This document shows, piece by piece, positions 11,736 through 30,516 of a stretch of DNA of 64,000 bases. The translations under genes and the position numbers were made by a program. Numbering within the stretch: position 1 is the stretch's first letter; each line of letters opens with the position of its first letter. This DNA is from Sphingopyxis italica (GTDB lineage Bacteria; Pseudomonadota; Alphaproteobacteria; Sphingomonadales; Sphingomonadaceae). The notes under the pieces are model-generated. The model made no database searches and was not told the origin of the DNA. It saw only the letters and a program-made list of their open reading frames with translations. The DNA lies in NCBI RefSeq assembly GCF_011926545.1, contig NZ_JAATIT010000001.1:1258469-1322468 (forward strand), written 5' to 3'.

Positions 11736-11750
11736 CCAGGAGAAGATGAC

Positions 11751-13440: not shown

Positions 13441-13509
13441 TCCACTTCCTGGATGAGGGCCGTGGGTCGAGCGGGCGGCGGTCACGGCCCAATGAGCCGT
13501 CGTCCGGTT

Positions 13510-14566: not shown

Positions 14567-14577
14567 ACGATACAACT

Positions 14578-15528: not shown

Positions 15529-15530
15529 AG

Positions 15531-16928
15531 ATGGAGGCCAGCGCACGCGCTGAAATCGCAGTCGAGTCGCCGCACGAGCACGGCGTCAGCTTTGGCGCGG
15601 CGATGCGCGTCTGGAGCCGGATCGCGCTGCTCAGCTTCGGGGGACCGGCGGGCCAGATAGCGGTGATGCATCGCATCCTGGTCGAGGAGAAGCGCTGGAT
15701 CGGCGAGGAGAGGTTCCTCCACGCGCTCAACTATTGCATGCTCCTGCCCGGCCCCGAAGCGCAGCAGCTTGCGATCTACATAGGCTGGCTGCTCCACAAG
15801 ACCAAGGGCGGCCTGGTTGCCGGCGCGCTGTTCGTGCTGCCCGGCTTCCTCGCCATTCTCGCTCTCAGCTACATCTATGTGCTGCTCGGCCAGGTGCCGT
15901 TGGTCGAGGGCCTGTTCTTCGGATTGAAGGCGGCGGTGCTGGCAGTCGTGCTGCAGGCAGTGGTGCGGGTCGGCTCGCGTGCCTTGAAGAACAACGTCAT
16001 GCGCGGTCTTGCCGCGCTGGCGTTCGTCGCGATTTTCGTTCTCGACGTGCCTTTCCCGCTGATCGTGCTCGCCGCCGCGCTGATCGGCTTCTTCGGTGGC
16101 CGCGCTGGTTACGCCGCATTCAGGGGCGGCGGCGGACACGGTCCCGCCGGTGCCGAGATAATCCACGACCGCGACACCGCGCTTGGCGAGGGCCTCCCCG
16201 ATCATGCGCGGCCGAACCTTTCCTGGTCGCTGCGCATCTCCGGCGTTCTGCTTGTGCTCTGGCTGGCACCGGTCGCAGCGCTACTGATCGCGTTCGGTGC
16301 GGATGACGTATTCAGCCGCATCGCCATCTTCTTCAGCCAGATGGCGGTAGTGACCTTCGGCGGCGCCTATGCGGTGCTCGCCTATGTCGCTCAGGAGGCG
16401 GTCGAGACCTATGGCTGGCTCCAGCCCGGCGAGATGCTTGATGGGCTCGGCATGGCCGAGACTACGCCGGGTCCGCTGATCATGGTGACGCAGTTCGTCG
16501 GCTTTCTGGCAGCCTTCCGCGAGGCCACCGGACTGCCGCCGCTCATCGCCGCGACGTTGGGCGCGATTCTCACCACCTGGGTCACTTTCCTGCCCTGCTT
16601 CCTGTGGATCTTCGCCGGCGCGCCGTTCATCGAACGCCTGCGCGGCAACCGCGCATTGTCGGCCGCGCTTTCGGCGATCACCGCCGCAGTGGTGGGTGTC
16701 ATTCTCAATCTGGCAGTCTGGTTCGGGATTCACACCTTGTTCGGGCAAGTCCGCGAAGTGCCGTTCGCGGCCGGCGCCATCGATCTCCCAGTCCTGACGT
16801 CCGTCGACTGGCCCGCGTTAGCGCTGGCGGTGGGTGCGATCCTCGCCATGTTCCGGTTCAAGGCCGGCATGCTGCCGGTGCTCGGCGTCTGCTCCGTCCT
16901 CGGGGCCGCATATGTAATGATCATCTGA
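15531..16928 (+). CDS. chrA: Chromate efflux transporter ChrA (465 aa)
   Basis: CHR-family inner-membrane transporter that expels chromate using the proton gradient. It is the long bidomain form: two homologous halves, each with the signature (LLSFGGPAGQIAVMHR in the first, VVTFGGAYAVLAYV in the second) and the NYCMLLPGPEAQQLAIYIGW / MAETTPGPLIMVTQFVGF segments. About 10-12 hydrophobic segments. GAGGATTAAAG precedes ATG 15531 and overlaps the end of chrB, so expression is tightly linked. Confidence 0.95.
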   Translation: MEASARAEIAVESPHEHGVSFGAAMRVWSRIALLSFGGPAGQIAVMHRILVEEKRWIGEERFLHALNYCMLLPGPEAQQLAIYIGWLLHKTKGGLVAGALFVLPGFLAILALSYIYVLLGQVPLVEGLFFGLKAAVLAVVLQAVVRVGSRALKNNVMRGLAALAFVAIFVLDVPFPLIVLAAALIGFFGGRAGYAAFRGGGGHGPAGAEIIHDRDTALGEGLPDHARPNLSWSLRISGVLLVLWLAPVAALLIAFGADDVFSRIAIFFSQMAVVTFGGAYAVLAYVAQEAVETYGWLQPGEMLDGLGMAETTPGPLIMVTQFVGFLAAFREATGLPPLIAATLGAILTTWVTFLPCFLWIFAGAPFIERLRGNRALSAALSAITAAVVGVILNLAVWFGIHTLFGQVREVPFAAGAIDLPVLTSVDWPALALAVGAILAMFRFKAGMLPVLGVCSVLGAAYVMII

Positions 16929-16940
16929 AGGGAGTGACGT

Positions 16941-17672
16941 GTGACGATCGACCAATTTTCCCGACGCAGTGCAATCGCAACTCTTGGCATTGGAGCCGCA
17001 GCCATGACTATGAACGAAGCCTCGGCGCAGACGCCGACCGCAGCGCCGACGAATGTCCTCGCATTCGCCGGCAATCATCAGATCAAGCCGCTCAGGTTCG
17101 ATCCCGCCAGGCTCCACGGCCTCTCCGAAAGGCTGATCACATCGCACCACGAGAACAATTATGCCGGCTCGGTCAAGGCGTTGAATATGATCGAAACACG
17201 CCTTGCCGCCGCGCTCGCTGACCCGGACCTACCGCCGGTGGTCTATGGCGGCCTCAAGCGCGAGGAGCTGCACCGCACCGGCTCGGTCGTGCTCCATGAA
17301 ATCTATTTCGACGGGCTGGGCGGCAACGGTCAAGCAGCCGGCTCGATCCGCGACGCGCTGGGCGCGGCGTTCGGCTCGTTCGACCGCTGGGAGACCGACT
17401 TCCGCCGCACCGGCATGAGTCTTGCCGGCGGATCAGGTTGGTGCGTGCTCGTCTACAATCTCCACACCCGCTCGCTGCACAACCATTGGGCGTGGGATCA
17501 TATGCACGGCGCAATCGCCGGCGTGCCGCTGCTGGCGCTCGATATGTACGAGCATAGTTTTCACATGGATTACGGCACCGCCGCCGCCAAATACGTCGAC
17601 GCCTTCTTCCGCAACATCGACTGGGAAGTGGTCGACCGCCGCTATGCCGCGGCTTTGCGCGGCGGCGGCTGA
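16941..17672 (+). CDS. Exported Fe/Mn-type superoxide dismutase (243 aa)
   Basis: Superoxide dismutase fold with an added Tat-like signal (FSRRSAIATLGIGAAAMTM...ASA, residues 6-29), so the enzyme is probably periplasmic. Family landmarks: SHHENNYAGSVKALN, LHEIYFDGLGGNG, SGWCVLVYN, and LDMYEHSFHMDYG in place of the usual D-V-W-E-H-A-Y metal-ligand motif. The usual WEH tryptophan is changed, so metal preference is uncertain. GTG 16941 is preceded by AAGGGAG. It follows chrA by 12 bp and probably protects against superoxide formed in chromate reduction; such chr-linked dismutases are known. Confidence 0.85.
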   Translation: MTIDQFSRRSAIATLGIGAAAMTMNEASAQTPTAAPTNVLAFAGNHQIKPLRFDPARLHGLSERLITSHHENNYAGSVKALNMIETRLAAALADPDLPPVVYGGLKREELHRTGSVVLHEIYFDGLGGNGQAAGSIRDALGAAFGSFDRWETDFRRTGMSLAGGSGWCVLVYNLHTRSLHNHWAWDHMHGAIAGVPLLALDMYEHSFHMDYGTAAAKYVDAFFRNIDWEVVDRRYAAALRGGG

Positions 17673-17743
17673 CCCGTCCGCCGAGGATCAACACCCACTT
17701 CTGCGCGACACCTGAGTTGGCGACCACAAAGGGGGCAGGTCCG

Positions 17744-18838
17744 ATGGGAGATGCAACAGTGACATCCGGCCCGAACATCGCTCTTCTTTGGCGCGGACAA
17801 GCGGCCGAGTGGACGCATCGCTTTCATGAAGCTCGGCAGTGGCCGATCGTTCAAGCCTTGCGGTCGTTCGGGGCGACCACAAGGCCTGTACTGTACAGAG
17901 ACGAAGCGGTTCGCGACATTCGTGACGAGTTGCTGTCGTTCGACGCGGTGCTGGTCTGGGTGAATCCGTTGGACATTTCAGGCGACCGCTCGGTGCTCGA
18001 CCCGATGCTGCGCGAAGTCGCGGCGTGCGGCGTTGTCGTCAGCGCGCATCCCGACGTGATCGCCAAAATCGGCGTCAAGGACGTGCTCTACACAACACGG
18101 TCCATGGAATGGGGCAGCGATGTCGCTAGATACGTGGACGCTGAAGGCCTTCGTGCATATTTTCCGCAACGTCTTGTCGGAGGTCCGCGCGTGCTGAAGC
18201 CGAACTACGGGAACGGCGGCAGGAATGTGTGGCGTGTCCAACTGGCCGGAGCGGGAGACGATCCTGCTTTGGAAACGTGGGTGGAAGTTCAAGAGGCCCG
18301 TCAAGGAAGCAAATCGGAGCGCATCAGCCTAGCCGAATGCTTGGATAGGTGGGTGCCGTTTCTGAACGGCGGCGGCGTGCTGATCGATCAGGCTTATCAG
18401 CCGCAGTCGTCCAAGGGCATGGCCCGCTGCTACGTGAGCGGGCACCGTGTGGTGGGCTTTGGGCACAACCTGATCACTGCGCTGATGACGCCAACGTCCG
18501 TTGATACAATGTCGTCACCCCCACAGCCGATGGGCCGCGTCATGTTCGGACCGGAGGTAACGCGCTTCGCAGCCTTACGCAAAGCGATGGAGGATCGCTG
18601 GATTCCGGAGATGCAAAGTTTGCTGTCGATCGCCGACCACGATCTTCCGCTTCTTTGGGACGCCGACTTCCTGTTTCGCGCTCGTAAAAGCGCCAACGAT
18701 AGTCCGTACGTGCTTTGCGAAATCAACGCCAGTTCGGTTGCACCATTTCCACCAAGTGCTGTCCAGCCAGTCGCCGCGGCGGCCGTCGGTCGCGCTCTGG
18801 CTGGTCGTTTGCGGAAGGAGACCTCCAATCCGCATTGA
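17744..18838 (+). CDS. Cj0069-like ATP-grasp-type protein (364 aa)
   Basis: Resembles the Cj0069 family, distantly related to ATP-grasp ligases. Visible features: VGGPRVLKPNYGNGGRNVWRV (about residues 145-165) as the likely nucleotide-binding segment, an acidic DADFLFRAR, and VLCEINASSVAPFPPSA near the end, comparable to the E-x-N metal-binding motif of ATP-grasp enzymes. Substrate unknown. GGGGGCAGG sets ATG 17744. It lies 71 bp after the dismutase gene and may be cargo of the same accessory block. Confidence 0.65.
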   Translation: MGDATVTSGPNIALLWRGQAAEWTHRFHEARQWPIVQALRSFGATTRPVLYRDEAVRDIRDELLSFDAVLVWVNPLDISGDRSVLDPMLREVAACGVVVSAHPDVIAKIGVKDVLYTTRSMEWGSDVARYVDAEGLRAYFPQRLVGGPRVLKPNYGNGGRNVWRVQLAGAGDDPALETWVEVQEARQGSKSERISLAECLDRWVPFLNGGGVLIDQAYQPQSSKGMARCYVSGHRVVGFGHNLITALMTPTSVDTMSSPPQPMGRVMFGPEVTRFAALRKAMEDRWIPEMQSLLSIADHDLPLLWDADFLFRARKSANDSPYVLCEINASSVAPFPPSAVQPVAAAAVGRALAGRLRKETSNPH

Positions 18839-18960
18839 TATGATTCAAGCAATTCAAGAGACGTGACATTGGTCGTAAGCATAGTTGCCTATCGATCAGG
18901 CAAGCCCAAGGGTGAGCGAGGCTGGGTGAAACTTCGGAAGCCAACCTGAGAACCAATGCT

Positions 18961-19302
18961 TTAAATGGCAATCTCTAAGGAATTATAACATAGGTGTTCC
19001 CGTGAACCCGAGACAACCGATGTTATAACTCGGCCGTGGTCGGGTTTCGGGGTTCCGTTGACGAAATCAAGGATGCCCATGAGCGAGCCGTGGAGCGTGG
19101 CATGAATCTCGCCGCGCCGTTCGCCGGGCGAGAGGATGATCTTGCCGACGAGCGAACGGATATCGCTTGAGGCATCGAGCCGCGTTTCGGGATCGCGGAG
19201 CGTCGCGGTGAGCCGCGCGACCTTGCGCTTGTAGATTTCGGCGATGCCCGGATGAGCATCGGGAATATCGGCGGGCGCTTCGGCAATACGAAGGGACCGC
19301 AC
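18961..19302 (-). pseudogene. C-terminal remnant of a large serine recombinase
   Basis: An open frame of 113 codons that corresponds only to the end of a site-specific serine recombinase: AEAPADIPDAHPGIAEIYKR, then LTATLRDPETRLDASSDIRS, LVGKIILSPG and GEIHATLHGSLMGIL, a typical recombinase tail. The catalytic and DNA-binding domains are missing: 8 bp upstream begins the stop end of the dehydrogenase gene. The last codons (YNSLEIAI then stop) are repeated 11 kb away at 29997-30040. This marks the left boundary of the 19-30 kb block. Confidence 0.75.
18963..19006. repeat. Left copy of 44-bp direct repeat, with an inverted repeat (candidate att site)
   Basis: Identical at 35 of 44 positions, without gaps, to 29997-30040, in the same orientation. 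Here it also forms the left arm of an imperfect palindrome: 18980-18997 (GAATTATAACATAGGTGT) against 19013-19031 read on the other strand (GAGTTATAACATCGGTTGT), centred on CCCGTGAACCCG. Dyad symmetry with a short asymmetric core is what serine-recombinase attachment sites look like. It overlaps the 3' end of the recombinase remnant. Confidence 0.55.
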
Positions 19303-19310
19303 TCGCCGAC

Positions 19311-20354
19311 TCAGCGTCCGATCATCTCCCGCGCCATCCGTTCGGCCGCGATTTCCGGTGCGACATTATAGGCATCGGCGTGATCGAAGATGCCGAGCAG
19401 CCGGTCGTGGATCGCCTCAATCGCTTGATCGAGCGATGGCGCGTGCGGCGTCTCGCGTCCCGGCAATGCGGCCGCGCCGAGAATTCCGCTTATGATTCCC
19501 CCGGCATTGATGACATAATCGGGGGCGAACAATATTTTCCGTTCCGCAAGGGCCGCCCCGGCCTCTGCCGAAGCCAGCTGATTGTTGGCCGAGCCGGCAA
19601 CCGCCTTTGCCTTCAGGTCCGGCACCGTCGCCTCCGAAATCACGCCGCCGAGAGCACAGGGCACGAAAATATCGCAATCGACGGCATGGATGTCATTGCA
19701 AGGCACGGCGCGGGCATCGAACGCGGCCACCGCCAATTTCACCCGCTCCTCGCGCACGTCCGCGACGATCAACCTGGCGCCTTGCGCATGCAGGCGTTCG
19801 GCCACACCCCAGCCGACGGCGCCAAGGCCTTGCAGGGCGAATTGCGCGCCGGCGAAACTGTCGGTGCCGAGCGCCCTTTTCAGAACGGCGCGCAATCCAT
19901 GAACGACGCCTTCCGCGGTCGGGATGGACGGGTCGATGCCCTTGGAGGTTCCGCCCACATATTTGGTCACCTCGGCGATCCGGTCCATGTCGGCGACCGT
20001 CATGCCGACATCCTCTCCGGTCGCGAAGTGATTGCCGATTCGATCGATGAAGCGGCCATAGGCGTGCAGCAGTTCGGGCGATTTCAGCTGGTGAGGGTCG
20101 CCGATGATGACCGCTTTGCCGCCCCCGACCGGAAGGCCGGCGAGCGCAGACTTGTACGACATGGCCCGGGATAGGCGAAGCGCATCGTCCAGCGCATCGG
20201 AATCGCTCGAATAGACCTTGAAGCGTGTTCCGCCCGCGGCCGGCCCAAGCGCCGTCGAATGGATCGCCACGATCGCCTTCAATCCGGTCTTCTCGTCGGT
20301 GAAGACGCAGACCTGCTCGTGACCGTCGAATTCCGCGGACTCCCAAACGCTCAT
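19311..20354 (-). CDS. Leu/Phe/Val-type amino-acid dehydrogenase (347 aa)
   Basis: NAD(P)-dependent oxidative deamination of a hydrophobic amino acid to its 2-oxo acid, by family. Glu/Leu/Phe/Val dehydrogenase fold with the dimerisation/catalytic half (MSYKSALAGLPVGGGKAVII, lysines 68 and 80) and GEDVGMTVADMD, then a Rossmann half with LQGLGAVGWGVAERL. Length suits leucine or phenylalanine dehydrogenase rather than glutamate dehydrogenase. ATG 20354 has GGGAGA 6 bases upstream. Divergent from the YkvI-like transporter, with a shared AT-rich control region. Confidence 0.9.
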   Translation of the reverse strand: MSVWESAEFDGHEQVCVFTDEKTGLKAIVAIHSTALGPAAGGTRFKVYSSDSDALDDALRLSRAMSYKSALAGLPVGGGKAVIIGDPHQLKSPELLHAYGRFIDRIGNHFATGEDVGMTVADMDRIAEVTKYVGGTSKGIDPSIPTAEGVVHGLRAVLKRALGTDSFAGAQFALQGLGAVGWGVAERLHAQGARLIVADVREERVKLAVAAFDARAVPCNDIHAVDCDIFVPCALGGVISEATVPDLKAKAVAGSANNQLASAEAGAALAERKILFAPDYVINAGGIISGILGAAALPGRETPHAPSLDQAIEAIHDRLLGIFDHADAYNVAPEIAAERMAREMIGR

Positions 20355-20380
20355 CAAAATTCTCCCGACCTGTAAACGAT

Positions 20381-20420
20381 ATTCCAATTCACCAATCTAT
20401 TGCCAAATCAGAAATATTTC
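20381..20420. promoter_or_regulatory. Candidate operator region between dehydrogenase and transporter
   Basis: An AT-rich island in a GC-rich background. It contains ATTCCAATTC (20381-20390) and the perfect palindrome GAAATATTTC (20411-20420). Closely similar elements occur before the TonB receptor: TTCCAATTTGGAA (21651-21663) and GGAAATATATTCC (21642-21654). Shared operators for the XRE-cupin regulator at 27024 are a reasonable guess; not tested. Confidence 0.4.
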
Positions 20421-20471
20421 GTCTACAGGAAATTTCGCAAGAGGAAAACGCGCTAAAGCTCGGAGGGCACG

Positions 20472-21611
20472 ATGACCCAGAATGACTGGTTTCGCCGGAT
20501 ATGGCTTCCCGGACTGGCTTTCAAAGCAGCAGTGATCGGCGGCGGCTATGCCACCGGGCGTGAGCTCGCGACCTTTTTCGTCCCGAGCGGGCCGGTCGGC
20601 GGCTTGTGGGGCTTGCTCGCTGCAACCGCGATCTGGAGCGCGGTTGCGGCTTTGACCTTCGCCTTTGCCGTCCACACGCGAGCGCGAGACTATCGCACCT
20701 TCTTCCGCCATCTGCTCGGACGCTTCTGGTGGATTTTCGAGGTGGCCTATCTCATCGCGATTCTTGTCATTCTTGCTGCGTTCGCCGCGGCAGCGGGTTC
20801 AATCGGCGCGAGCTTGTTCGGTTGGCCGGAAATCGGCGGCGCCCTGCTATTCATGGCCGCCACGACCTTCTTCGCATCCCGGGGGAACGAGTGGGTCGAG
20901 CCGCTCTTCAAATATGTCTCGGTCCTCCTCTATGGCACCTACGCAATCTTCCTTATTCTCGCGCTCAGCCGCTTCGGCGATCGCATCGCTGCAACCTTCG
21001 CCGCCTCTCATCCCCCGGACGGCTGGCTGACCGGCGGCGTGACCTATGCGAGTTACAATATCATCGGCGCCATCGTGATCCTTCCCGTCCTGCGCCACCT
21101 GCACTCGCGCCGCGACGCCGTCATCGCCGGCCTTCTGGCAGGGCCGCTGGCGATGCTCCCGGCTGTGCTCTTCTTTTTGCCGATGCTCGCCTTTTTTCCG
21201 GGTATCGAGTCGGTCGAATTGCCTTCCGATTTTCTGCTCGAGCGGCTGAATCTGCCCTGGTTCCGGGTCGTGTTTCAGCTCATGGTTTTCGCCGCCCTGC
21301 TCGAAAGCGGCGTGGGAGGCGTCCACGCCGTCAATGAACGTATCGCGCAGAGTTGGACGGCCCGGCGAGGCGGCGACTTTCCAATGCCCAAACGGGCCGC
21401 CGTCGCAGCCGCCATCCTCGCCCTCGCGGTGTTCGTCGCCGGCCAGTTCGGTCTCGTCGCGCTTGTGGCCGAGGGTTATCGCTGGCTCGCCTATCTATTC
21501 CTGCTGATCTACGTCCTCCCGCTTTCGACCCTTGGGCTGCGACACATGTTGCGCGTGCGGCGCGCCGAGCCGCTCGCGACCATCATTCCCGCCACCGATG
21601 CGGGCAGTTGA
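20472..21611 (+). CDS. YkvI-like inner-membrane transporter of the APC/LeuT-fold type (379 aa)
   Basis: About ten hydrophobic segments and an N-terminal WLPGLAFKAAVIGGGYATGRE typical of YkvI-type membrane proteins, which are predicted secondary transporters related to amino-acid/sodium symporters. The unwound GGGYATGRE in the first segment is the likely substrate site. Substrate is unknown; neighbours point to an amino acid. ATG 20472 follows CGGAGGG. Transcribed divergently from the dehydrogenase and followed 86 bp later by the TonB receptor. Confidence 0.75.
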   Translation: MTQNDWFRRIWLPGLAFKAAVIGGGYATGRELATFFVPSGPVGGLWGLLAATAIWSAVAALTFAFAVHTRARDYRTFFRHLLGRFWWIFEVAYLIAILVILAAFAAAAGSIGASLFGWPEIGGALLFMAATTFFASRGNEWVEPLFKYVSVLLYGTYAIFLILALSRFGDRIAATFAASHPPDGWLTGGVTYASYNIIGAIVILPVLRHLHSRRDAVIAGLLAGPLAMLPAVLFFLPMLAFFPGIESVELPSDFLLERLNLPWFRVVFQLMVFAALLESGVGGVHAVNERIAQSWTARRGGDFPMPKRAAVAAAILALAVFVAGQFGLVALVAEGYRWLAYLFLLIYVLPLSTLGLRHMLRVRRAEPLATIIPATDAGS

Positions 21612-21641
21612 CTTTCCCGTATCAGCAATATTATCTAATAA

Positions 21642-21663
21642 GGAAATATATTCCAATTTGGAA
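21642..21663. promoter_or_regulatory. Candidate operator upstream of the TonB receptor
   Basis: Perfect 13-bp palindrome TTCCAA-T-TTGGAA (21651-21663) overlapping a near-palindrome GGAAATATATTCC (21642-21654). The surrounding 60 bp are strongly AT-rich. The same half-site TTCCAA occurs upstream of the dehydrogenase/transporter pair and of the ThDP enzyme. Confidence 0.45.
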
Positions 21664-21697
21664 ATTACAAAAAAATAATGTGGGAAGGGATGCCGAG

Positions 21698-23905
21698 ATG
21701 GACAAGAAAAAAGGACTTTCGTTTCGCGGCGGGCGGGTTGCCGCTTTTGGTGCGGCAGCGGTTTTGGGAGCGACCGGGCACGCGCCCGCGGGCGCCCAGA
21801 CGACCGACACGGCGCAGGCCAGGGCCAGTGTCGATACCGAAATCATCGTGACGGCCACGCGGCGCGAGGCCCGCCTGCTCGACGTGCCCATCAGCATCCA
21901 GGCCGTCACCGGCGAGGAACTGGCCCGGATCGGCGCGGTCAATTTTTCGGATTATGCGCGCGGCATCGCCGGCGTGTCCTTCCTCGACAACGGCCCCGGC
22001 AGGAACCAGATTTTCATCCGCGGCGTGTCCGCCGGGGCGGAAGTCGATACGGGCACCGAAGCGACCGTCGGTCTCTACATAGATGAGACGCCGGTCGGCG
22101 AAGGCTCGTCGCAACCCGATATCCGCCTTTACGACATCGACCGGGTCGAGGTGTTGCGCGGGCCGCAAGGCACGTTGTTCGGCAGCGGCTCGCTTGGCGG
22201 AACGTTGCGCGTGCTGACCAACCAGCCGCGGTTCGACCAAATCGCCGGCTATCTGCAACTGACCGGCTCGGTCACGGACCATGGCGGCGCCAACGGTGCG
22301 GCAAACGGCTGGATCAATATTCCGCTGTCGGACAAGGTCGCGGTGCGCGCCGCCGCCTATGGAATCCGCAATGCGGGATTCATCGACGACCTCGGCGGAG
22401 AGAAGAATATCAACGAGGAAAAGACCTACGGCGGCCGGCTCGCCGTGCGGTTCCAGCCCGTCGAAGACCTGAACGTCACATTGACGGGCATGTATCAGGA
22501 TACGCGGATCGGTGCGCTGGACCAGGCCACCGATACATTTCCGGACCTGATCCAGGATCGCAGCGCGGATACCCCTTATCGGGACCGAATCGCGACCGCC
22601 AATCTGCGTATCGACCTCGACCTGGGGTTCGGGACGCTGACATCGTCAAGCTCCTACTTCGATCGCCGCCGCCGCTTCAGCAACGACATCGACCATTTTC
22701 TCGGTCTCCTCAATTTCGTGGGGGCGATCCCCTTTTCGCTCGGGGATTCGCGCCTGTCCTATCCGTCCACGTCAAAAGTCCAGGAAATCCGACTGGCCTC
22801 GAACGGCGACGGACCGTTCCGCTGGGTCGTCGGCGGCTTCTATCTCGACCGCGACGACAAGGTGGGGCAGACGATCAATCCGCTTGGCGTGCCGCCCCAG
22901 GCCCGGACGGGCGACAATATCTATTATGAGGATGATCGTTTCGGCGCGAAGCAACTCGCCGGATTCACCGAACTCAGTTATGATCTGACCGACCGGCTCA
23001 CCGCGACAGCAGGGGCGCGTGTGTCGCGCACCAGGCGCAGCGAAGTCCGCGTCACCGACGGTCCCTTCCTCGGCGGATTTTCGCGGGTGAGCGGGCGGTT
23101 TAGCGAAACCTCCACGACGCCCAAATTCAATCTCTCCTACAAGCCCGCGGACTCCGCACTTCTCTATGTTCAGGCCGCAAAAGGCTTTCGTATTGGGGGC
23201 AACAACGCCGGCTTGCCGCCCTGCGGCATCGGCTGCACGATCGATGTCGGGCCGGCCTTCGATTCCGACTCGCTGTGGAATTATGAAGTCGGCGCCAAGT
23301 TTTCGGTCCTCGATCGCGCTCTGACCGTAACGGCAGCCGCTTTCCGCATCGACTGGAAGAATATCCAACTCAATGTCGAGCGCGGGGACGGTTTCAATGG
23401 CTTTCTGAACGCCGGCACAGCGCGTATCGAGGGGGCGGAACTCGAAATCAACGCCCGCATCGGCGATCATTGGCGCTTCGGTGGGCAAGCCACCTATACC
23501 GACGCGACGCTCCGCAGCGTCGCTCCGGGTGTTCCCGCGACCCCCGGGCAGCGCCTGCCGCAGGTAGCGCGATGGAATGCCGCAGCTCACCTCGAATATG
23601 GACGGCCTGTCGGCGGTGATGGATACGCTTATATTCGCGGTGACGTCCAATATGTCGGGCCGCGCGTGAATTCGATATCGGCGGCCCCCTTGCCGATCGA
23701 CGATTATGCACTGTTCAATTTGAAGCTCGGATTGAACAGTGGCTCCTACGAGTTTTCGCTGTTCGGGAAAAATCTGCTCGACAAGCAGGCCCAGCTTGGT
23801 CGCACCCGGCTCGACGGCGTGCTGAGAGGGGTGCCGGTGTCGCTCGATCGGATTTCGGTAAATGTCCCGCGCACGATCGGCTTGTCGGTCGCGCGCTCCT
23901 TCTAG
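21698..23905 (+). CDS. TonB-dependent outer-membrane receptor (735 aa)
   Basis: Signal peptide (to AGAQ, about residue 34), a TonB-box-like EIIVTATRR, a plug domain (LLDVPISIQAVTGEEL; ... FIRGVSAG; VEVLRGPQGTLFGSGSLGGT) and a beta-barrel ending in aromatic-terminated strands (VPRTIGLSVARSF). It imports a scarce substrate across the outer membrane with TonB/ExbB/ExbD energy; a tonB-exbB-exbD operon lies at 37-39.7 kb. The neighbouring peptidases suggest peptides, but sequence alone does not show the ligand. ATG 21698 is preceded by GGAAGGGA. Confidence 0.9.
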   Translation: MDKKKGLSFRGGRVAAFGAAAVLGATGHAPAGAQTTDTAQARASVDTEIIVTATRREARLLDVPISIQAVTGEELARIGAVNFSDYARGIAGVSFLDNGPGRNQIFIRGVSAGAEVDTGTEATVGLYIDETPVGEGSSQPDIRLYDIDRVEVLRGPQGTLFGSGSLGGTLRVLTNQPRFDQIAGYLQLTGSVTDHGGANGAANGWINIPLSDKVAVRAAAYGIRNAGFIDDLGGEKNINEEKTYGGRLAVRFQPVEDLNVTLTGMYQDTRIGALDQATDTFPDLIQDRSADTPYRDRIATANLRIDLDLGFGTLTSSSSYFDRRRRFSNDIDHFLGLLNFVGAIPFSLGDSRLSYPSTSKVQEIRLASNGDGPFRWVVGGFYLDRDDKVGQTINPLGVPPQARTGDNIYYEDDRFGAKQLAGFTELSYDLTDRLTATAGARVSRTRRSEVRVTDGPFLGGFSRVSGRFSETSTTPKFNLSYKPADSALLYVQAAKGFRIGGNNAGLPPCGIGCTIDVGPAFDSDSLWNYEVGAKFSVLDRALTVTAAAFRIDWKNIQLNVERGDGFNGFLNAGTARIEGAELEINARIGDHWRFGGQATYTDATLRSVAPGVPATPGQRLPQVARWNAAAHLEYGRPVGGDGYAYIRGDVQYVGPRVNSISAAPLPIDDYALFNLKLGLNSGSYEFSLFGKNLLDKQAQLGRTRLDGVLRGVPVSLDRISVNVPRTIGLSVARSF

Positions 23906-23952
23906 AGGCGGCGCACGCCGACCGCGTCGCGGGCGAGGCGGTAACCAATCGC

Positions 23953-25137
23953 ATGGAGAAGATGATGATCAAATCGAGTGAATGGTTCCGCCGTGCCGCC
24001 GGCCATGCCGCCATGACGGCCTTGCTGGCCAGCCCGCTGGTGGGCGCCGCCGCGGCGCAGGAGGCGCCGCAGGCTCCCGTCGCCGCGCCCGATGCGCGCG
24101 CAATCATCGCCGACGCCCGCAGGATCATGGCGCCGCGCGGGATCGAGGAAAATTATGCGGTCGAAATCGGCGGCATAAAGCAGTGGGTCTCGGTGCGTGG
24201 CCGTGACAGCCGCAATCCGATCCTTTTGTTCATCCACGGCGGTCCCGCCACCACCGAAATGCCGGTGAGCTGGCTCTATCAAAGCTCGTGGGAGGATTAC
24301 TTCACCGTGGTGCAATGGGACCAGCGTGGTGCCGGAAAAAGCTGGACTGCCAACGAGGATCCCGCGGCGATCGCCGAAGGCATCTCGATCGAGCGGATGA
24401 CGCAGGATGGCGTGGAACTCGTCGACTACCTGCGAAAGAAATACGACAAGCGCAAAATCTTTGTTCTGGGTCATAGCTGGGGCACGGTTATCGGCCTGAA
24501 TGTCGCGCTTCGCCACCCGGACTGGCTGCATGCCTATATCGGCATGGGACAGGTGATCAACGGACAGGAGAATGAAGAACTCGGTTATGCCTTCGCCCTT
24601 CGCGAGGCGCGCCGGACCAAAAACGCTCAGGCGATAAAGGAATTGGAGGCGATCGCGCCCTATCCCAATCCCTCCGCGCCGACCTTCTTCGAGCAGGTCC
24701 TGACCCAGCGCAAATGGGTGATTTACTTCGGCGGACTGACGGCGGGACGCAGCGACTTTTCCTATGATACCAATGCCCGCCTGCTGGCGCCCGAATATAG
24801 TGATGCCGACCTCGCCGCCGCGCGTTACGCCGGGCTGAGCCTCGTGGCGCTGATACCGGGTCTGACGCAACTCGATTATCGCAAGGTGCATCGCCTCGAC
24901 ACGCCGCTCTTCATCGTGGCGGGGCGCCGCGATTTCGAGACCCCGTCGGCGCTGGCGGCCGATTGGTTTTCCTCGGTGCAGGCGCCCTACAAGCGCTTGT
25001 TCTGGTTCGAGCATTCAGCGCATATGATGCAGCTCGAGCAACCCGGAAAGCTGCTGATGCATCTGGTGAACGATGTGCGTCCCATTGCGGCCAGAGCGGG
25101 CGATGTCGCGCCGGGCGACGCGCCGGGCGTGGACTGA
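23953..25137 (+). CDS. Secreted S33-type alpha/beta hydrolase, proline-iminopeptidase-like (394 aa)
   Basis: Alpha/beta hydrolase with the oxyanion segment FIHGGPATTEM, the WDQRGAGKS motif of proline iminopeptidases, nucleophile elbow GHSWGT, and a C-terminal Asp (AGRRDFETP) and His (EHSAHMM). A signal peptide (to AAAQ) places it in the periplasm or outside. Predicted to release N-terminal proline or similar residues from peptides. Start may be ATG 23953 or one of ATG 23962/23965, which follow GGAGAAG. Lies 47 bp after the TonB receptor. Confidence 0.82.
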   Translation: MEKMMIKSSEWFRRAAGHAAMTALLASPLVGAAAAQEAPQAPVAAPDARAIIADARRIMAPRGIEENYAVEIGGIKQWVSVRGRDSRNPILLFIHGGPATTEMPVSWLYQSSWEDYFTVVQWDQRGAGKSWTANEDPAAIAEGISIERMTQDGVELVDYLRKKYDKRKIFVLGHSWGTVIGLNVALRHPDWLHAYIGMGQVINGQENEELGYAFALREARRTKNAQAIKELEAIAPYPNPSAPTFFEQVLTQRKWVIYFGGLTAGRSDFSYDTNARLLAPEYSDADLAAARYAGLSLVALIPGLTQLDYRKVHRLDTPLFIVAGRRDFETPSALAADWFSSVQAPYKRLFWFEHSAHMMQLEQPGKLLMHLVNDVRPIAARAGDVAPGDAPGVD

Positions 25138-25144
25138 CCGCATC

Positions 25145-27013
25145 ATGCCAGCGCCGCTTCCGCTTCGCCGCCGTGAACTGCTTGCCGGTGCGGCTTGCCT
25201 CGTCCCCTCGCCGCTCTGGGCGGCGGACGGCGAGGCCGCGCCCGCGCAGCGGCTGGACCGCGTTCTTGCGTCCATCCTGTCGGACATGCTCGCCGATTCA
25301 CCGGAGGCGGCGACGCGCTACGGCCTCGACGTCGGTTCGCATACCGCGCTTCGGGCGCGGCTCGACGACCGCTCGCCCGCCGCGGCGACGCACCGGAGGG
25401 ACAGGCTCCGTTCGCAGCTTCAGGCGCTGCGGTCGATCGATGCCGAAGCGCTCGATCATCGCGACCTCATCGATCTGCGGGCTGTTGCAACGACGCTCGG
25501 GCACCGCAGCGCAGTCGCCGATGCGTTCGCCTATGGCGACGCCGCTCAGGCCCGGCCCTATGTCGTCAGCCACCTCCACGGCGCTTATGTCGATGTTCCG
25601 GAATTCCTTAGTTCAAAACATCCGGTCGGCGATGCGGCCGACGCCCACGCTTATCTCGACCGCGTAGACGCGCTCGGCGGCGTCCTGCGGGGCGAGACGG
25701 CCCATATCAGGCGTGACGCCGGGCTGGGCGTCGTACCGCCGCCCTTCGTCCTCGACCGCATGACGCGGCAAATGACTTGGCTTCGTGACCAGTCGGTCGC
25801 CGATACGCCGGTGCTGGCATCCTTCGCGCGCAAGCTGCGGATTGCCGGCTTGCCGGACCATTACGCGGCGACGGCGAACACGCTATGGCGCGAGAAAGCC
25901 CTGCCCGCCCTCGACGAGCAGATTTCTGCGCTTCGCGCCTTGAAGGCGCCTGCACAGGGCGACGGCGTCGGTCGCTTGCCGAAGGGCGATGCCTATTATG
26001 CCGCCAGTCTCCAGCTTCATATCACGGCCAGGCCCGACATCGCCGATTTTCACCGGACGGGAATCGAGGCGACCGCCGCTATGGCGGCACAGTTGCGGGC
26101 ACTCCTCACCAAGCTTGGCTATGCGGCCGACACGATCTCGAAGCAGATTCTGGCCTTCCTGACCGATCCGGTGCACCTGTATCCCAATACCGATGCGGGC
26201 CGCGCGACGCTGATCGAAGATATGACGGCCCGGTTGGACACGATGCGCACGCGCTTGCCGCGCTACTTTCGAACGTTGCCGCGGATTCCGTTTGAAATTC
26301 GGCGGGTGCCCGAGTTTCTCGAGAGCGGGGCGCCGATCGCCTATTATGAAGACCCCGCGCTCGACGGCTCGCGCCCCGGCACATTCTATCTCAATCTTGG
26401 CGATACATCTAATGTCCCCCGGTGGATGCTGCCGACAACGGCTTTTCACGAAGCGATCCCCGGCCACCATCTGCAGCAGGTGGTTTTGCAGGAAAGTTCG
26501 CCGGTGCGGACGATCCGCAAGATATTGTGGTCGTCGGGCTATGGCGAGGGTTGGGGCCTTTATGCCGAGCAGCTCGCGGACGAGCTTGGGATGTATGACG
26601 AGGATCCGGTGGGGCGGGTGGGTTATCTTCTTGCGACGCTGCTGCGCGCCGCGCGAATGGTCGCCGATACCGGCATCCACGCCTTGCGCTGGAGCAGGGA
26701 GCAAGCCGCGACGTGGATGATCGATAATGGCGTCCCGCCGCCGATCGCCGCGAACGAGGTGGAACGATATTGCGTCTGGCCGGGGCAAGCGTGCAGCTAT
26801 CTTGTCGGCAAGCGCCACTGGACCGACCTGCGTGCGAGGGCAGAGAAAACCCTTGGACCGCGGTTCGATATACGCGATTTCCATGCCACGACGCTTTCCG
26901 TCGGCGCGGTGCCGCTTTCCGTGCTTGAGCAGGTCGTCGATCGCTTCATAGTGAAAACCGGCAAGCCGGGCGGGAACGGCACGCGCACCAACGTCCGCAG
27001 CCAGTCAAGATAA
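25145..27013 (+). CDS. DUF885-family predicted metallopeptidase, exported (622 aa)
   Basis: DUF885 protein with an N-terminal Tat-like signal (LRRRELLAGAACLVPSPLWA). The likely zinc motif HEAIPGHH is at residues 435-442, with a downstream glutamate in GYGEGWGLYAEQ. Family members are uncharacterised but related to thermolysin/M3-like gluzincins. Starts 7 bp after the hydrolase stop; ATG 25145 avoids overlap and gives a proper signal sequence, though the ribosome site is weak. Predicted second exported peptidase of the cluster. Confidence 0.82.
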   Translation: MPAPLPLRRRELLAGAACLVPSPLWAADGEAAPAQRLDRVLASILSDMLADSPEAATRYGLDVGSHTALRARLDDRSPAAATHRRDRLRSQLQALRSIDAEALDHRDLIDLRAVATTLGHRSAVADAFAYGDAAQARPYVVSHLHGAYVDVPEFLSSKHPVGDAADAHAYLDRVDALGGVLRGETAHIRRDAGLGVVPPPFVLDRMTRQMTWLRDQSVADTPVLASFARKLRIAGLPDHYAATANTLWREKALPALDEQISALRALKAPAQGDGVGRLPKGDAYYAASLQLHITARPDIADFHRTGIEATAAMAAQLRALLTKLGYAADTISKQILAFLTDPVHLYPNTDAGRATLIEDMTARLDTMRTRLPRYFRTLPRIPFEIRRVPEFLESGAPIAYYEDPALDGSRPGTFYLNLGDTSNVPRWMLPTTAFHEAIPGHHLQQVVLQESSPVRTIRKILWSSGYGEGWGLYAEQLADELGMYDEDPVGRVGYLLATLLRAARMVADTGIHALRWSREQAATWMIDNGVPPPIAANEVERYCVWPGQACSYLVGKRHWTDLRARAEKTLGPRFDIRDFHATTLSVGAVPLSVLEQVVDRFIVKTGKPGGNGTRTNVRSQSR

Positions 27014-27023
27014 AGAGGGACTC

Positions 27024-27692
27024 ATGACGAAGGATATCGAAACCATCTTCAAGTCGGCGGCGCGCGCAAGCCCCGACCCTCAATTGCTCCGACCCGGTCA
27101 GGCGCTGCGCGGTTTTCGGACCGAGCAGGGCTTGACGCTGGCCGAAGTCAGTCAGCGGACCGGCCTGACGGCCTCGACATTGTCGAAGATCGAAAACGGC
27201 AAGATGGAATTGACGGTCGACAAGCTCATTCGCATCAGCCTTGCCCTCGAAGTGAATGTGGCGGACATTTTCGGCTCGCCCCGCGGGCAGTTCACGAGCG
27301 GGGAGAAGGCGCGGCGTCGCAGCATTACGCGGGCCTCCGAGGGGCAGGCGATCAGGTCGAAAAATGGTGAGTACCGGTATCAGGCTTTCGATCTCCTCAG
27401 CAAGGAAATGACGCCGATGGTCGCCGACGTCGAAGCGCGCAGTATCGAGGAGTTCGGAGAGTTCCATCGGCATCCGGGCGAGGAATATGTCCACGTGCTG
27501 GAAGGAAGGCTTGTCTTTTATTCCGATACATATGCGCCGGCCTATCTCGACGCAGGCGATTCCATCTATTTCGACAGCGATATGGGGCACGCCTATGTGA
27601 ACGCGGGCGACGAACGCTGCCGAATATTGTCAATATTTTCTACGCTGGATTCCCAAGTGTTGCCTCTGGTTGAGAGCCGGACAAAGCCTTGA
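27024..27692 (+). CDS. XRE-family regulator with C-terminal cupin sensor domain (222 aa)
   Basis: Helix-turn-helix of the XRE type (LRGFRTEQGLTLAEVSQRTG, LTASTLSKIENGKM; about residues 29-82) joined to a cupin domain (about 140-215) with HRHPGEEYVHVLEGRL and a late GDSIYFDSDMGHAY, the usual histidine/glutamate metal pocket. Such regulators sense small metabolites and control nearby catabolic genes. AGAGGGA precedes ATG 27024. As the only regulator in the 19-30 kb block it probably binds the palindromes noted upstream of the transporter and receptor. Confidence 0.88.
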   Translation: MTKDIETIFKSAARASPDPQLLRPGQALRGFRTEQGLTLAEVSQRTGLTASTLSKIENGKMELTVDKLIRISLALEVNVADIFGSPRGQFTSGEKARRRSITRASEGQAIRSKNGEYRYQAFDLLSKEMTPMVADVEARSIEEFGEFHRHPGEEYVHVLEGRLVFYSDTYAPAYLDAGDSIYFDSDMGHAYVNAGDERCRILSIFSTLDSQVLPLVESRTKP

Positions 27693-27778
27693 GTCCGGGC
27701 GGCACAGCCCAGAGCCCCATTTTCCAAGCATTTCATGTCGTCGCGTTAAGCGGCGAGGCGCATTACAGGAAGAAATTC

Positions 27779-27871
27779 ATGAACCCGGCAATTTCGATCG
27801 TCCATCACGGCGCAGCAGACAGTGGCGCGAAAACCCGTCCGGCAGGATGTCGCCCGGAGCAAGGCTGGTGA
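27779..27871 (+). CDS. Putative 30-aa leader ORF coupled to the ThDP enzyme
   Basis: ATG 27779 has a textbook ribosome site (AGGAAG, 27767-27772, 6-base spacer). The frame runs 30 codons (starts MNPAISIVHHGAADSG, ends RPEQGW) and its TGA overlaps the GTG start of the next gene as GTGA (27868-27871). The arrangement suggests translational coupling or a regulatory leader peptide. No obvious run of a single amino acid is present, so classical attenuation is not indicated. Confidence 0.45.
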   Translation: MNPAISIVHHGAADSGAKTRPAGCRPEQGW

Positions 27872-29412
27872 ACGGGGCGCGGGCATTGCTCGAGACGTTG
27901 AAAGCCAGCGGAGTCGAGGTCTGTTTCGCCAATCCGGGCACCTCGGAAATGCAGCTTGTCGCCGCATTGGACGAGGTCGACGGCATCCGGGCCGTGCTGG
28001 GACTGTTCGAAGGGGTCGTGACCGGCGCCGCCGACGGATATGGACGGATGGCCGACAAACCCGCGGTCACGCTGCTGCATCTGGGGCCCGGGCTGGCCAA
28101 CGGGCTCGCCAACCTGCACAATGCCCGCCGCGGTGGATCGCCGATCGTGAACCTCGTCGGCGACCACGCGGACTATCATCTTTATCTTAACTCACCGCTG
28201 ACGTCCGACATCGAAGGGCTCGCCCGCCCTGTATCCGACTGGGTGCACCGTGCGACATCCGCCGACGATCTCGCCGAGGCGGGCGCGGCCGCGGTGGCAA
28301 TCGCGCATGAGGGAGCCGGGCGCATCGCGACGGTGATCGTTCCGGCCAACCATGCCTGGAGCGGCGATGCCATATCTGCACCGCCGCGTCCGACGGACGC
28401 GCGCGCCACGGTCGCTCCTGACGTCATCGAGCGGGCTGCGGACGCCCTGCGGAACGCCAGGATGCCCTGCCTGTTCGTCGGCGGCCGGGCGTTGCGCGAA
28501 GACGCGATGCTGGCAGCCGGGCGGGTCGCGACCGCAACCGGCGCACGTATCGTCTGCGAAACCTTCGCCACGCGGCATCAACGTGGTGCCGGCAGGGTAG
28601 CGGTAGAGAAACTTCCCTATTTCGGGGAGGAAGCCCAAGCCTTCCTCGCGGAATTCGACGCCATTGTCTATTGCGGAGCGGACGCTCCTGTGTCCTTTTT
28701 CGCCTATCCTGGGAAACCGAGTATCCTGGCTCCGGATACGGCCTTGTCCGTTCGCCTCGCATCGAAACGGCAAAACCATCTTCATGCTCTCTCGGCGCTA
28801 GCCGACGCGTTGGGAGCACCGGCAGAAACCGACCGCCTGCAGCGAGCGGGCACACCGCCAGTGGAGGAGGGCAAGCTTACTCCGGTGAATGCTGGCGCGA
28901 TCATTGCGGAAATGCTGCCCGACGACGCCATCGTCAGCGACGAAGGGGCGACGTCGAGCTTCGCGGCATTCGCCCAGTCGGCGGGCGCTGCGCGCCACGA
29001 CTGGCTGCAATTGACAGGGGGCGCCATAGGCCAGGGCCTGCCGGTCGCTATCGGCGCGGCGATCGCCTGCCCCAACCGCAAGGTCATCGCGCTTCAGGCC
29101 GATGGATCGGCGATGTACACCAACCAGGCGCTATGGACCATGGCGCGCGAGCGCCTCGATATCGTCACTATATTATTCAATAATCGGTCCTACGCGATCC
29201 TGAACATCGAAATGACGCGCGTCGGTGCGCAGACACCCGGACCGAAAGCCAAAGCCATGCTCAATCTCCGGGAACCGGATATCCAGTGGCGCACTTTGGC
29301 CGAATCGATGGGCGTCGAGGCTACAACGGCGACGACGACAGAAGAGTTTCGTGCATCGTTGGGAAGGGCGCTGGCGCGAAAAGGGCCAGTGCTGATTGAA
29401 GCAATGATATAG
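27868..29412 (+). CDS. ThDP-dependent acetolactate-synthase/benzoylformate-decarboxylase-like enzyme (514 aa)
   Basis: Three-domain thiamin-diphosphate enzyme: N-terminal PYR domain with CFANPGTSEMQLVAALD and the family glutamate in LFEGVVTGAADGYGRM, and C-terminal PP domain with the cofactor motif ADGSAMYTNQALWTMA...NN (about residues 411-440). It belongs to the acetolactate-synthase-large-subunit-like group whose members often act as 2-oxo-acid decarboxylases. With the amino-acid dehydrogenase it could process 2-oxo acids. GTG 27868 is chosen because homologues begin NGARALLETL here and it is coupled to the upstream mini-ORF; ATG 27847 is an alternative. Confidence 0.82.
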   Translation: MNGARALLETLKASGVEVCFANPGTSEMQLVAALDEVDGIRAVLGLFEGVVTGAADGYGRMADKPAVTLLHLGPGLANGLANLHNARRGGSPIVNLVGDHADYHLYLNSPLTSDIEGLARPVSDWVHRATSADDLAEAGAAAVAIAHEGAGRIATVIVPANHAWSGDAISAPPRPTDARATVAPDVIERAADALRNARMPCLFVGGRALREDAMLAAGRVATATGARIVCETFATRHQRGAGRVAVEKLPYFGEEAQAFLAEFDAIVYCGADAPVSFFAYPGKPSILAPDTALSVRLASKRQNHLHALSALADALGAPAETDRLQRAGTPPVEEGKLTPVNAGAIIAEMLPDDAIVSDEGATSSFAAFAQSAGAARHDWLQLTGGAIGQGLPVAIGAAIACPNRKVIALQADGSAMYTNQALWTMARERLDIVTILFNNRSYAILNIEMTRVGAQTPGPKAKAMLNLREPDIQWRTLAESMGVEATTATTTEEFRASLGRALARKGPVLIEAMI

Positions 29413-29565
29413 GGGGCTTCCGTTCGTTCAAATTAGCATTTTCCGACAGGATTTGACCCTCTAAATGCCGTAATGGTCCGGTGTCTCAGACGGCAGCCAG
29501 CATGGGCTTCTGTCTTTCAGAATGATGGTGTTGAAACGGGGGCCAAATGATCGGCCCCGAGCATT

Positions 29566-29690
29566 ATGAGAAGAACAGCCGTGGACTATTATGCGGGAAT
29601 CGATGCCTGTCGCAAAGAAAGCAGCGCGTGTGTTGTTGATGCCGAGGAGAAGGTGCGCGTGAGATCAACGTCACCAGCGAACCTACTACG
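29566..29690 (+). pseudogene. N-terminal remnant of an IS110-family transposase
   Basis: Translation from ATG 29566 gives MRRTAVDYYAGIDACRKESS then ACVVDAEEKVR, matching the start of IS110 transposases, including the first DEDD aspartate (AGID). After about 31 codons the frame breaks; shifting frame restores REINVTSEP, also IS110-like, indicating a one-base indel. The rest of the transposase is missing. It is a scar of an old insertion, not an active element. Confidence 0.65.
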
Positions 29691-29996
29691 CTTGGCGTCG
29701 CCGGTTTCGAGTTGGTGTTGCTGAAGCCGATCGACAATATCCCGCCCGCCAACACCGAAGAACGATGCTATGCCATGCGGGACGACCCATGGCTGCGTAA
29801 CTCAATCCCAATGGCTTCCGGCAGCCTCGGGGTGGTTCACCGTTGCCAATCCGTCCTATTTCAGGCGTTACCAATCCTCCCAACAAAGTTTCTATACGCT
29901 GGCGTGTCGCGTTAAATTGCGACCGACATGCGTGTGCTGCCGAGAATGCTGAAACTGAAGCGCGAAACCGCCGTTCTCTGGCCTCTCAAGAGGTTC

Positions 29997-30040
29997 AAAT
30001 GGTGATCGCCAACGAGTTATAACAATGGTGTGCCCGTGAA
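29997..30040. repeat. Right copy of 44-bp direct repeat (recombinase 3' end / candidate att site)
   Basis: Matches 18963-19006 at 35 of 44 positions in the same orientation. Read on the minus strand it encodes SRAHHCYNSLAITI and a stop, paralogous to SREHLCYNSLEIAI and stop in the recombinase remnant. Most mismatches preserve the reading frame, so this is a diverged homologue rather than a recent duplication. To the right of CCCGTGAA the two copies share nothing. Confidence 0.6.
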
Positions 30041-30084
30041 AGCGGGAATGACGAGAATTTGCAGATAGAAATGGAGAAACGCCC

Positions 30085-30516
30085 ATGCCCTCCCCCATCC
30101 GTATCCTCACCCTCGCCGCGCTGCTCGCCCTCGCGCCCGCCGCCGCAGCAGCAGCACCGGCGGCCAACCCCGCCCCGCTCCAGCAACTGCGCATCTACGA
30201 AATCCCGCGCGCCAACGAGGGCGTGTTTCACGACCGTTTCCGCGATCACGCGCTGCGCATCATGGCGCGCCACGGCTTCGCGGTGCGCTCGATCTGGCGC
30301 AGCGAGCATGAGGGCAAGGTCGAATTCGTCTATCTGCTCGACTGGCCCGATGCCGCTACGATGAAAGCGGCGTGGGCCGCCTTCATGGCCGATCCCGAAT
30401 GGGCGGCGATCAAGAAGGAAACGGGCGCGCGCCACGGCCGCTTCGTCGACGCGATTTCGGACCGCACGCTCGAACCCGTGCCTTACTCGCCCGACCGCGC
30501 CGGCGCGGGCGGCTAG
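30085..30516 (+). CDS. Exported NIPSNAP-family protein (143 aa)
   Basis: Signal peptide (LTLAALLALAPAAAAAAPA) followed by one NIPSNAP domain, a ferredoxin-like dimeric alpha/beta barrel: LQQLRIYEIPRANEGVFHDR, LRIMARHGFAVRSIW and VYLLDWPDAATMKAAWAAFM. The molecular role of bacterial members is unclear. TGGAGAAAC before ATG 30085. First gene right of the putative island boundary. Confidence 0.8.
   Translation: MPSPIRILTLAALLALAPAAAAAAPAANPAPLQQLRIYEIPRANEGVFHDRFRDHALRIMARHGFAVRSIWRSEHEGKVEFVYLLDWPDAATMKAAWAAFMADPEWAAIKKETGARHGRFVDAISDRTLEPVPYSPDRAGAGG

Follow-up and report, generated by a model that had tools for sequence, protein, structure and literature searches.

What bounds an 11-kb block of catabolic genes in Sphingopyxis italica, and how might the block have come to lie where it does? 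The question is raised by 44-bp direct repeats that align without a gap and lie at 18963-19006 and 29997-30040 of a 64,000-nucleotide (nt) stretch of contig NZ_JAATIT010000001.1 (we refer to the whole stretch as the window), which are identical at 35 of 44 positions; the next best match to either copy, on both strands of 124 kb of the same contig, reaches 26 of 44. A sequence-only reading of the window had described this pair accurately and had taken the copies for the attL and attR attachment (att) sites of a single element. We conclude instead that each repeat is the distal attachment arm of its own element, A on the left and B on the right, both being of the large serine recombinase (LSR) type and standing in tandem. 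The stretch from 19005 to 30040 is very probably the inner, decayed member (B) of this two-element tandem, inserted in a palindrome of the repetitive extragenic palindromic (REP) type. In the naming used below, G numbers denote genomes, those of the genus coming from a sample of 60 that was drawn from a larger group, and G082 and G086 being Sphingobium; L numbers denote loci; C1 is the window's own contig; and L003 is the stretch that holds the left end of element A.

A dyad, TTATAAC...GTTATAA at 18983-19029, takes in the left copy, as the sequence-only reading had noticed, and the stretch 18963-19029 joins a distal arm (P') to a recombinase-side arm (P) through a single shared AA, so that the insert contains a complete P'-AA-P site. 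In the sense of the LSR gene the P arm is laid out as GTTATAAC, n3 and GGTG...CGGG, with P' its mirror-like counterpart, and the host palindrome is laid out as CGTCATTCCCGCG-AA-AGCGGGAATGACG. The crossover can probably be placed at the AA, because in 11 inserts the variation splits there, being host-like on the host side and arm-like on the element side. The left copy is, unlike in the earlier reading, the junction between A and B, with an attP-like structure. The divergence of the two copies, once ascribed to an old event or to attL/attR hybrids, fits two elements with different arms, and the arms of other elements vary likewise. What stands of the 11-kb island is that it is bounded, with arms at both ends that are attachment sites of a serine recombinase; its boundaries were incomplete, since a second element, which begins outside the window, abuts it on the left.

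Both repeats had also been said to code the end of a serine recombinase, and this holds for one of them. The open reading frame (ORF) at 18961-19302 is an LSR C-terminus, 76% identical over its residues 4-103 to an intact LSR 27 kb to the left. A search of the organism's own genome with the C-terminal 113 amino acids (aa) finds only two places, this ORF and C1:1249870, where the intact 579-aa LSR lies; the right copy has no recombinase attached, and we rejected the view that both repeats are recombinase gene ends. It can nevertheless be read as HHCYNSLAITI followed by a stop, because a distal arm encodes an LSR tail, and does so only when joined to an LSR. The peptide YNSLxIxI, which the earlier reading had singled out, is thus real recombinase coding sequence, namely the distal-arm tail CYNSLxIxI.

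We also considered whether the palindrome alone could have produced the direct repeats, and rejected this: the repeats are arm sequence, and a search of the 60 genomes for an arm plus palindrome returned 56 places, against 2 with a reversed control. A tRNA target was rejected as well, since ARAGORN finds no tRNA in the window and tRNA targets occur only in distant relatives. The 56 places were typed as 28 recombinase-side arms, 26 distal arms and 2 doubtful ones. Arm pairs lying less than 60 kb apart on one contig number 12, and all 12 have the expected order and orientation; 11 of these two-ended inserts, from 2.6 to 39.9 kb long, were examined in full, the twelfth being that of G050. The LSR C-terminus is itself matched in 23 of the 60 genomes, weakly in four of them (G022, G025, G036 and G058). 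One of the two-ended elements, G046:C55:49653-52321 (L124), spans 2.6 kb, with little in it beyond a shortened LSR frame; it is a minimal remnant of this family.

The tandem as a whole begins 8.6 kb to the left of the window, and runs for 38,626 bp from C1:1249881 to window position 30039. At its left end the intact LSR gene continues into CGTCATTCCCGCGAA, and at its right end the right-hand repeat continues into AGCGGGAATGACGAG. This length follows because the outer flanks, when joined, form the palindrome CGTCATTCCCGCGAA-AGCGGGAATGACG, and because the flanking genes, of the Arr and NIPSNAP families, are 38.7 kb apart here and adjacent in eight genomes of the genus (G002, G006, G014, G024, G028, G031, G051 and G052). 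An empty site had been proposed as a check, and one is indeed found in relatives; the site belongs, however, to the whole insert of A plus B rather than to the 11-kb block. In G052 the gap between the two genes holds the palindrome as a doublet, whose right flank equals ours over 37 nt. The target is a short interspersed palindrome of REP type: a strict form of its pattern has 7 copies in the organism's own genome and occurs in 38 of the 60 genomes, and the copy between arr and the NIPSNAP gene, the sole one viewed for this, is intergenic. The Arr-family protein is matched in 33 of the 60 genomes; its match in G002 is split in two pieces, and G038 has the NIPSNAP gene and no Arr match.

Several observations weigh against this account of the insertion. 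Among the eight genomes with adjacent flanking genes, only G052 has this palindrome between them. Judged by eye, the gap in G002 holds a related CGTCAT...ATGACG doublet, those of G031 and G051 a different inverted repeat, and those of the other four neither a palindrome nor an inverted repeat. Furthermore, 16 of the 28 recombinase-side arms and 14 of the 26 distal arms have no partner in the list of 56 places, through contig breaks, decay or missed partners.

Tandems occur in three of the 11 inserts, those of G000, G034 and G028, the latter two having the layout seen at our locus with other contents. In each, the outer LSR is intact, with an open frame of 583, 548 and 610 aa respectively, and the inner LSR is truncated, to 134, 375 and 128 aa. 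Such arrangements could arise as follows. An LSR would join attP (P'-AA-P) to a copy of the host palindrome, leaving one end made up of a host half and P and the other of P' and a host half; if a further element then arrived with a working LSR, it could recombine with an end of the resident one, giving host-P_A...P'_A-P_B...P'_B-host. The use of a resident element's end by a second element is described for tandem prophages (PMC9934374) and for the accretion of integrative and mobilizable elements (IMEs) and cis-mobilizable elements (CIMEs) (PMC5704250). For element B to move or leave, another element such as A would then have to provide the LSR, unless B were to ride along with A.

The position of the crossover has a consequence for the recombinase itself. 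The gene of the element A LSR ends inside a half of the palindrome; read from sequence, attP lies within the 3' end of the LSR gene, the gene is read across the crossover, and its own 3' end is lost on integration. The last amino acids of the LSR thus appear to be exchanged at each insertion. Of 30 loci supplied for a count of LSR ends, an arm was recognised in 22 non-tandem and 3 tandem ones, the other five (L025-L029) standing outside the count. In 17 of the 22 non-tandem ends the integrated LSR reaches a TGA stop in the host palindrome, 10 nt past the core dinucleotide, and the protein ends in SGSRE or SGSPG. When the two ends of an insert were joined in a script, 10 of 11 inserts gave a longer tail, all of one length and CYNSLEIAI-like, with the stop 33 nt (11 codons) later; the eleventh, from G057, has a broken LSR and no such joined tail. 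For the three tandems this joining pairs the outer ends of two different elements, so that more weight falls on the natural junctions. There, in each of the three cases (L001, L009 and L035), the frame of the inner LSR enters the neighbour's arm and acquires a CYNSLEIAI-like tail, with its stop 43 nt past the core; the positions +43 and +10 differ by 11 codons. An integrated LSR is thus finished by the TGA of the host palindrome; the LSR of a circle, by prediction, would read through into the P' arm of its own element and stop 11 residues further on, as SGSR-x-H-x-CYNSLE-I/V-AI and a stop. The end of this tail is hydrophobic (...LEIAI) and, by eye, not ssrA-like. Two points tell against the exchange as described: the remaining 5 of the 22 non-tandem ends (L017, L018, L019, L024 and L033) meet a degenerate host half and their frame runs on, and attP has been read from joined element ends or tandem junctions, no circle or excision having been observed.

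What might such an exchange do? It could be a tolerated by-product, in which the tail matters only in the protein of the circular form and the gene, once integrated, simply takes any stop that the host sequence happens to supply, and on this view we are evenly divided. The five frames that run on into unrelated host-derived tails favour it, and so does the variety of tails that follow one and the same motif in distant relatives. In LSRs of 54-59% identity the gene end runs into the antisense of tRNA-Met(CAT): a tail of GFEP type, derived from the tRNA, is found in 20 of 68 loci (L144-L211), with GFEP[AT]TFRL and a stop at L176, L182, L190, L204-L209 and others, and ARAGORN, run on 30 of 80 loci, places tRNA-Met at the LSR end in 14 of the 30. 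At other distant loci the VVAG motif is the same but the tails that follow it differ, some of them being recurrent; NHLYRTKFIWKKS, for example, occurs in two loci and a close variant in a third. In the wider family, too, the C-terminus of the recombinase may thus be exchanged at the target. Against a mere by-product speaks the stop found at the same place in 17 of the 22 ends. The three tandem-inner LSRs, which have regained the tail in frame from a neighbour, are all truncated, and this too would argue for an effect of the tail, but decay before accretion explains it equally well. Our own tentative proposal, which we consider somewhat more likely to fail than to hold, is that integration rewrites the LSR: a tailed circular enzyme would give way to a shorter integrated one, finished by the host target (the stop of the palindrome here, tRNA-Met sequence in the distant relatives), and the exchange would act as a built-in switch of activity, direction or stability.

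Whatever the effect of the exchange, the tail has the marks of coding sequence. A complete tail with its stop is present in 25 of 29 Sphingopyxis distal arms: 17 of the 20 arms that were read first (19 distinct sequences, two arms being identical), and 8 of the 9 that were read later as a check. The statistics below use the 16 distinct complete tails among the first 19 distinct arms, with the three incomplete ones and the nine later arms set aside. It is possible that the tail is no functional part of the LSR, and that the arm is conserved for binding of its DNA by the LSR or an excision factor, the frame being incidental. Part of the conservation is indeed at the level of DNA, since the inner portion of each arm forms a mirror-like half-site, and CYNS can often be read from the P side too. 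Beyond the GTTATAAC half-site, however, a share of 0.51 of the pairwise codon differences is synonymous in frame, whereas the other two frames give 0.16 and 0.17, and the stop alternates between TAA and TGA at a fixed place. None of 1000 column shuffles reached the in-frame synonymous share, and none of 1000 kept an open tail plus stop. Of the later-read arms 8 of 9 fit as well. Outside the genus, a Novosphingobium arm reads SREHLCHKSLEITI and a stop. A 39.1-kb Sphingobium element, whose half-site differs, reads SQEHLCRNFLRTEI and a stop; it agrees with element A in 8 of 14 residues, and both the length of the tail and the position of the stop are kept. We consequently regard DNA binding with an incidental frame as unlikely.

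The case for a coded tail has its weak points. Four of the 29 arms, in G037, G011:C18, G046:C65 and the G057 element, are without the full tail or stop; G037 has no LSR match in the genome, G011:C18 and G046:C65 have none on the contig, and the LSR of the G057 element is broken. Of two doubtful matches in G052, one (with core AC) reads SPEHRRNNSLDVAI and a stop and the other misfits. The Sphingobium distal arm comes from a single element with an imperfect host half, and a random sequence would have such an open tail and a stop at that place in 2.5% of cases; the arm-plus-palindrome pattern listed no distal ends in Sphingobium, and looser matching gave this one in G082 and none in the second genome, G086. 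If the coding selection is real, it would imply recurrent circular (or tandem) states, because an element that sits in the chromosome alone has its distal arm apart from its own LSR, and this arm nevertheless appears to be under coding selection. We regard this selection on the tail as the strongest indirect evidence that these elements move.

The tandem structure at our locus can also be questioned. One element might span all 38.6 kb, the internal site being an end duplicated by rearrangement (for example, homologous recombination between elements) rather than by accretion; only one LSR is intact, and there is one set of outer flanks. Yet the internal site is a complete P'-AA-P accompanied by a second LSR C-terminus, and the same tandem layout recurs with other contents in G034 and G028. 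Moreover, in G034 the distal end of element A lies against half of a host palindrome, and a near-identical arm shows the same in G031. The distal 7.2 kb of element A is 93% identical to the inner element of G034, which lies at another site, and the right boundary of A is independently supported because this homology ends at the crossover. A single rearranged element is on these grounds improbable, and we return to A and B as two elements.

Element A has an LSR that unites its three domains in one protein of 500-600 aa, as its class does, and carries an integrase, att sites and a relaxase (MobA/MobL, TraA type) of its own; judged by these genes, it is IME-like. No type IV secretion protein is found among its scanned proteins, the scan covering part of the ORFs of A. 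The AlpA-family gene beside the LSR is a candidate directionality factor by its position only. Of the 11 inserts, 8 share a backbone that consists of a relaxase, a TraD-family protein, a sigma factor and a DUF6118 protein. At 3091-4673 a nucleotidyltransferase gene (minus strand) stands beside a HEPN-domain gene (plus strand), the latter common to 7 of the 11 inserts. The cargo at 14578-17672 comprises ChrB, a chromate transporter and an iron superoxide dismutase. As to extrachromosomal forms, no plasmid or phage record reaches at least 60% LSR identity, the best viral contig standing at 55%.

Element B retains both arms and a truncated LSR, of which the C-terminus alone remains, as the earlier reading had supposed; this remnant has no Pfam match, and the eight B proteins scanned include no transfer protein. 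On this evidence from its genes and ends, B is CIME-like. The common functional theme that had been seen in the block also bears out, in a dehydrogenase, a TonB receptor, an S33 hydrolase, a DUF885 protein, an XRE-cupin regulator and a thiamine diphosphate (ThDP) enzyme, the transporter being putative; the gene set, inferred from families, fits peptide or amino-acid use. A remnant at 29577-29670 (plus strand) reads DYYAGIDACRKESSACVVDAEEKVRV, which we take to resemble the start of an IS110-type transposase. The sequence-only reading had allowed that close relatives with the same genes and no repeats would speak against it, and this is partly the case: most of the cargo recurs in G039 as a colinear copy, 67-71% identical, and the 16 kb scanned there contain neither arm nor palindrome. 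Because of this copy, the cargo set is not unique to these elements; it exists also outside them, and the att evidence is not undone. That the 11-kb cargo is an ordinary, vertically inherited operon flanked by arms through chance, as the G039 copy might suggest, is hardly credible, given that both arms match in structure the element ends of other genomes, that the region is absent between the flanking genes in eight relatives, and that the best match to the cargo region in 79 other genus genomes is 68% over 2 kb.

The coordinates of all these features are collected in Table 1. To the right of the insert, two small neighbouring genes at 31187-32024 (minus strand) share a 30-bp stretch repeated at 83%, possibly a tandem duplication.

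Table 1. Features of the tandem insert and its flanks (window positions unless prefixed by C1 or L003)
Feature	Position	Strand	Basis or remark
Arr-family gene (rifampin ADP-ribosyltransferase, PF12120), left chromosomal flank, outside the element	L003:10959-11384		
Element A, 27,592 bp	1..19004 (right-hand 19.0 kb) plus 8.6 kb to the left; left end C1:1249881 = L003:11413	.	arm geometry, empty site
Intact LSR, 579 aa	L003:11402-13141	-	Resolvase, Recombinase and zinc-ribbon domains
AlpA-family gene (PF05930), adjoining the LSR	L003:13320-13547	-	domain match
ParB-domain protein, backbone gene	1032..2981	+	in 7/11 inserts compared
TraD-family conjugal transfer protein	8252..8641	-	in 8/11 inserts
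MobA/MobL (TraA-type, MobQ) relaxase-helicase, backbone gene	8670..11735	+	in 8/11 inserts
DUF6118 protein, backbone gene	11751..12497	+	in 8/11 inserts
Cargo and distal end of element A	11809..19006	.	93% identical over 7.2 kb to the G034 inner element
Distal (P') arm, element A	18963..19004	+	minus strand from core reads SREHLCYNSLEIAI, then stop
Inferred central crossover dinucleotide AA of the A-B junction	19005..19006	.	centre of dyad; variation host-derived on one side, element-derived on the other, 11 inserts
Recombinase-side (P) arm, element B	19007..19029	-	arm comparison
Element B, 11,034 bp crossover to crossover	19005..30040	.	cargo-only (cis-mobilizable-type)
Truncated LSR of element B	18961..19302	-	frame runs across the junction into the element A distal-arm tail
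Glu/Leu/Phe/Val-type dehydrogenase (cargo)	19311..20387	-	family match
Putative membrane transporter (cargo)	20472..21611	+	no Pfam or NCBIfam model match
TonB-dependent receptor (cargo)	21353..23905	+	family match; start codon uncertain
S33 alpha/beta hydrolase, proline-iminopeptidase-like (cargo)	23953..25137	+	family match
DUF885 protein (cargo)	25073..27013	+	family match
XRE-cupin regulator (cargo)	27024..27692	+	family match
ThDP enzyme, acetolactate-synthase-like (cargo)	27670..29412	+	family match
Distal (P') arm, element B	29997..30038	+	minus strand from core reads SRAHHCYNSLAITI, then stop
Inferred crossover dinucleotide AA, right insert end	30039..30040	.	arm/host variation
Host right half of target palindrome	30041..30056	.	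left half = L003:11400-11414
NIPSNAP-family gene, right chromosomal flank	30085..30516	+	adjoins Arr-family gene in 8 related genomes

Several known systems resemble parts of this arrangement, and we compare them here as they are described in the sections of the cited papers that treat them. Tandem serine-recombinase islands with cargo-only members are already known: the ssrA islands of Dehalococcoides, which have a CcrB-type serine recombinase, stand in tandem at one locus, some without an integration module and proposed to be cis-mobilizable, and carry a ParB-domain gene near the recombinase (PMC3146451). They differ in their single-copy ssrA target and second small serine recombinase, and those sections make no mention of an exchange of the recombinase C-terminus (PMC3146451). 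IME/CIME accretion likewise combines integrase and relaxase in one element with a decayed neighbour that keeps both att sites, the tandem forming through an existing att site (PMC5704250); unlike those cases, ours has an LSR as integrase, a multi-copy palindrome rather than a gene as target, and an integrase gene that spans the crossover. In the integration-dependent immunity of mycobacteriophages, attP also lies in a coding gene whose 3' end is lost, and tandem insertion proceeds by attP x attL/attR, but the split gene there is a repressor and the lost end an ssrA-like degradation tag (PMC9934374), whereas here it is the recombinase.

Genes split by attP are known further from a pleolipovirus ORF (PMC7911831) and from the suicidal tyrosine integrases of archaea (SSV type), in which the recombination site lies within the integrase gene and which a review calls exclusive to archaea (PMC8371274). 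The latter are tyrosine recombinases split into two pseudogenes (PMC8371274); here the enzyme is of the serine family and its extreme C-terminus alone is exchanged, 14 codons against 3. Multi-targeting LSRs resemble our family in that related enzymes use many chromosomal sites (PMC10083194), with the difference that the many sites here are copies of one palindrome. The two open-licence papers in which 'extragenic palindromic' and 'serine recombinase' occur together deal, judged by title and abstract, with IS110-family elements. Among the matches listed from open-licence PMC literature there is no report of a palindrome-targeted LSR family, or of integration exchanging the C-terminus of an LSR.

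What lets serine integrases that have no known directionality factor distinguish integration from excision is an open question. The elements described here would offer a defined, testable bacterial case, an integrase whose C-terminus depends on the state of integration, and an enzyme with two forms that the att site itself encodes lends itself to direct tests. They also add a palindrome-targeting family of LSRs, with predicted attB and attP. They indicate, finally, that a block of catabolic genes can persist as a cargo-only element, its att sites kept, beside a relative with an intact LSR.

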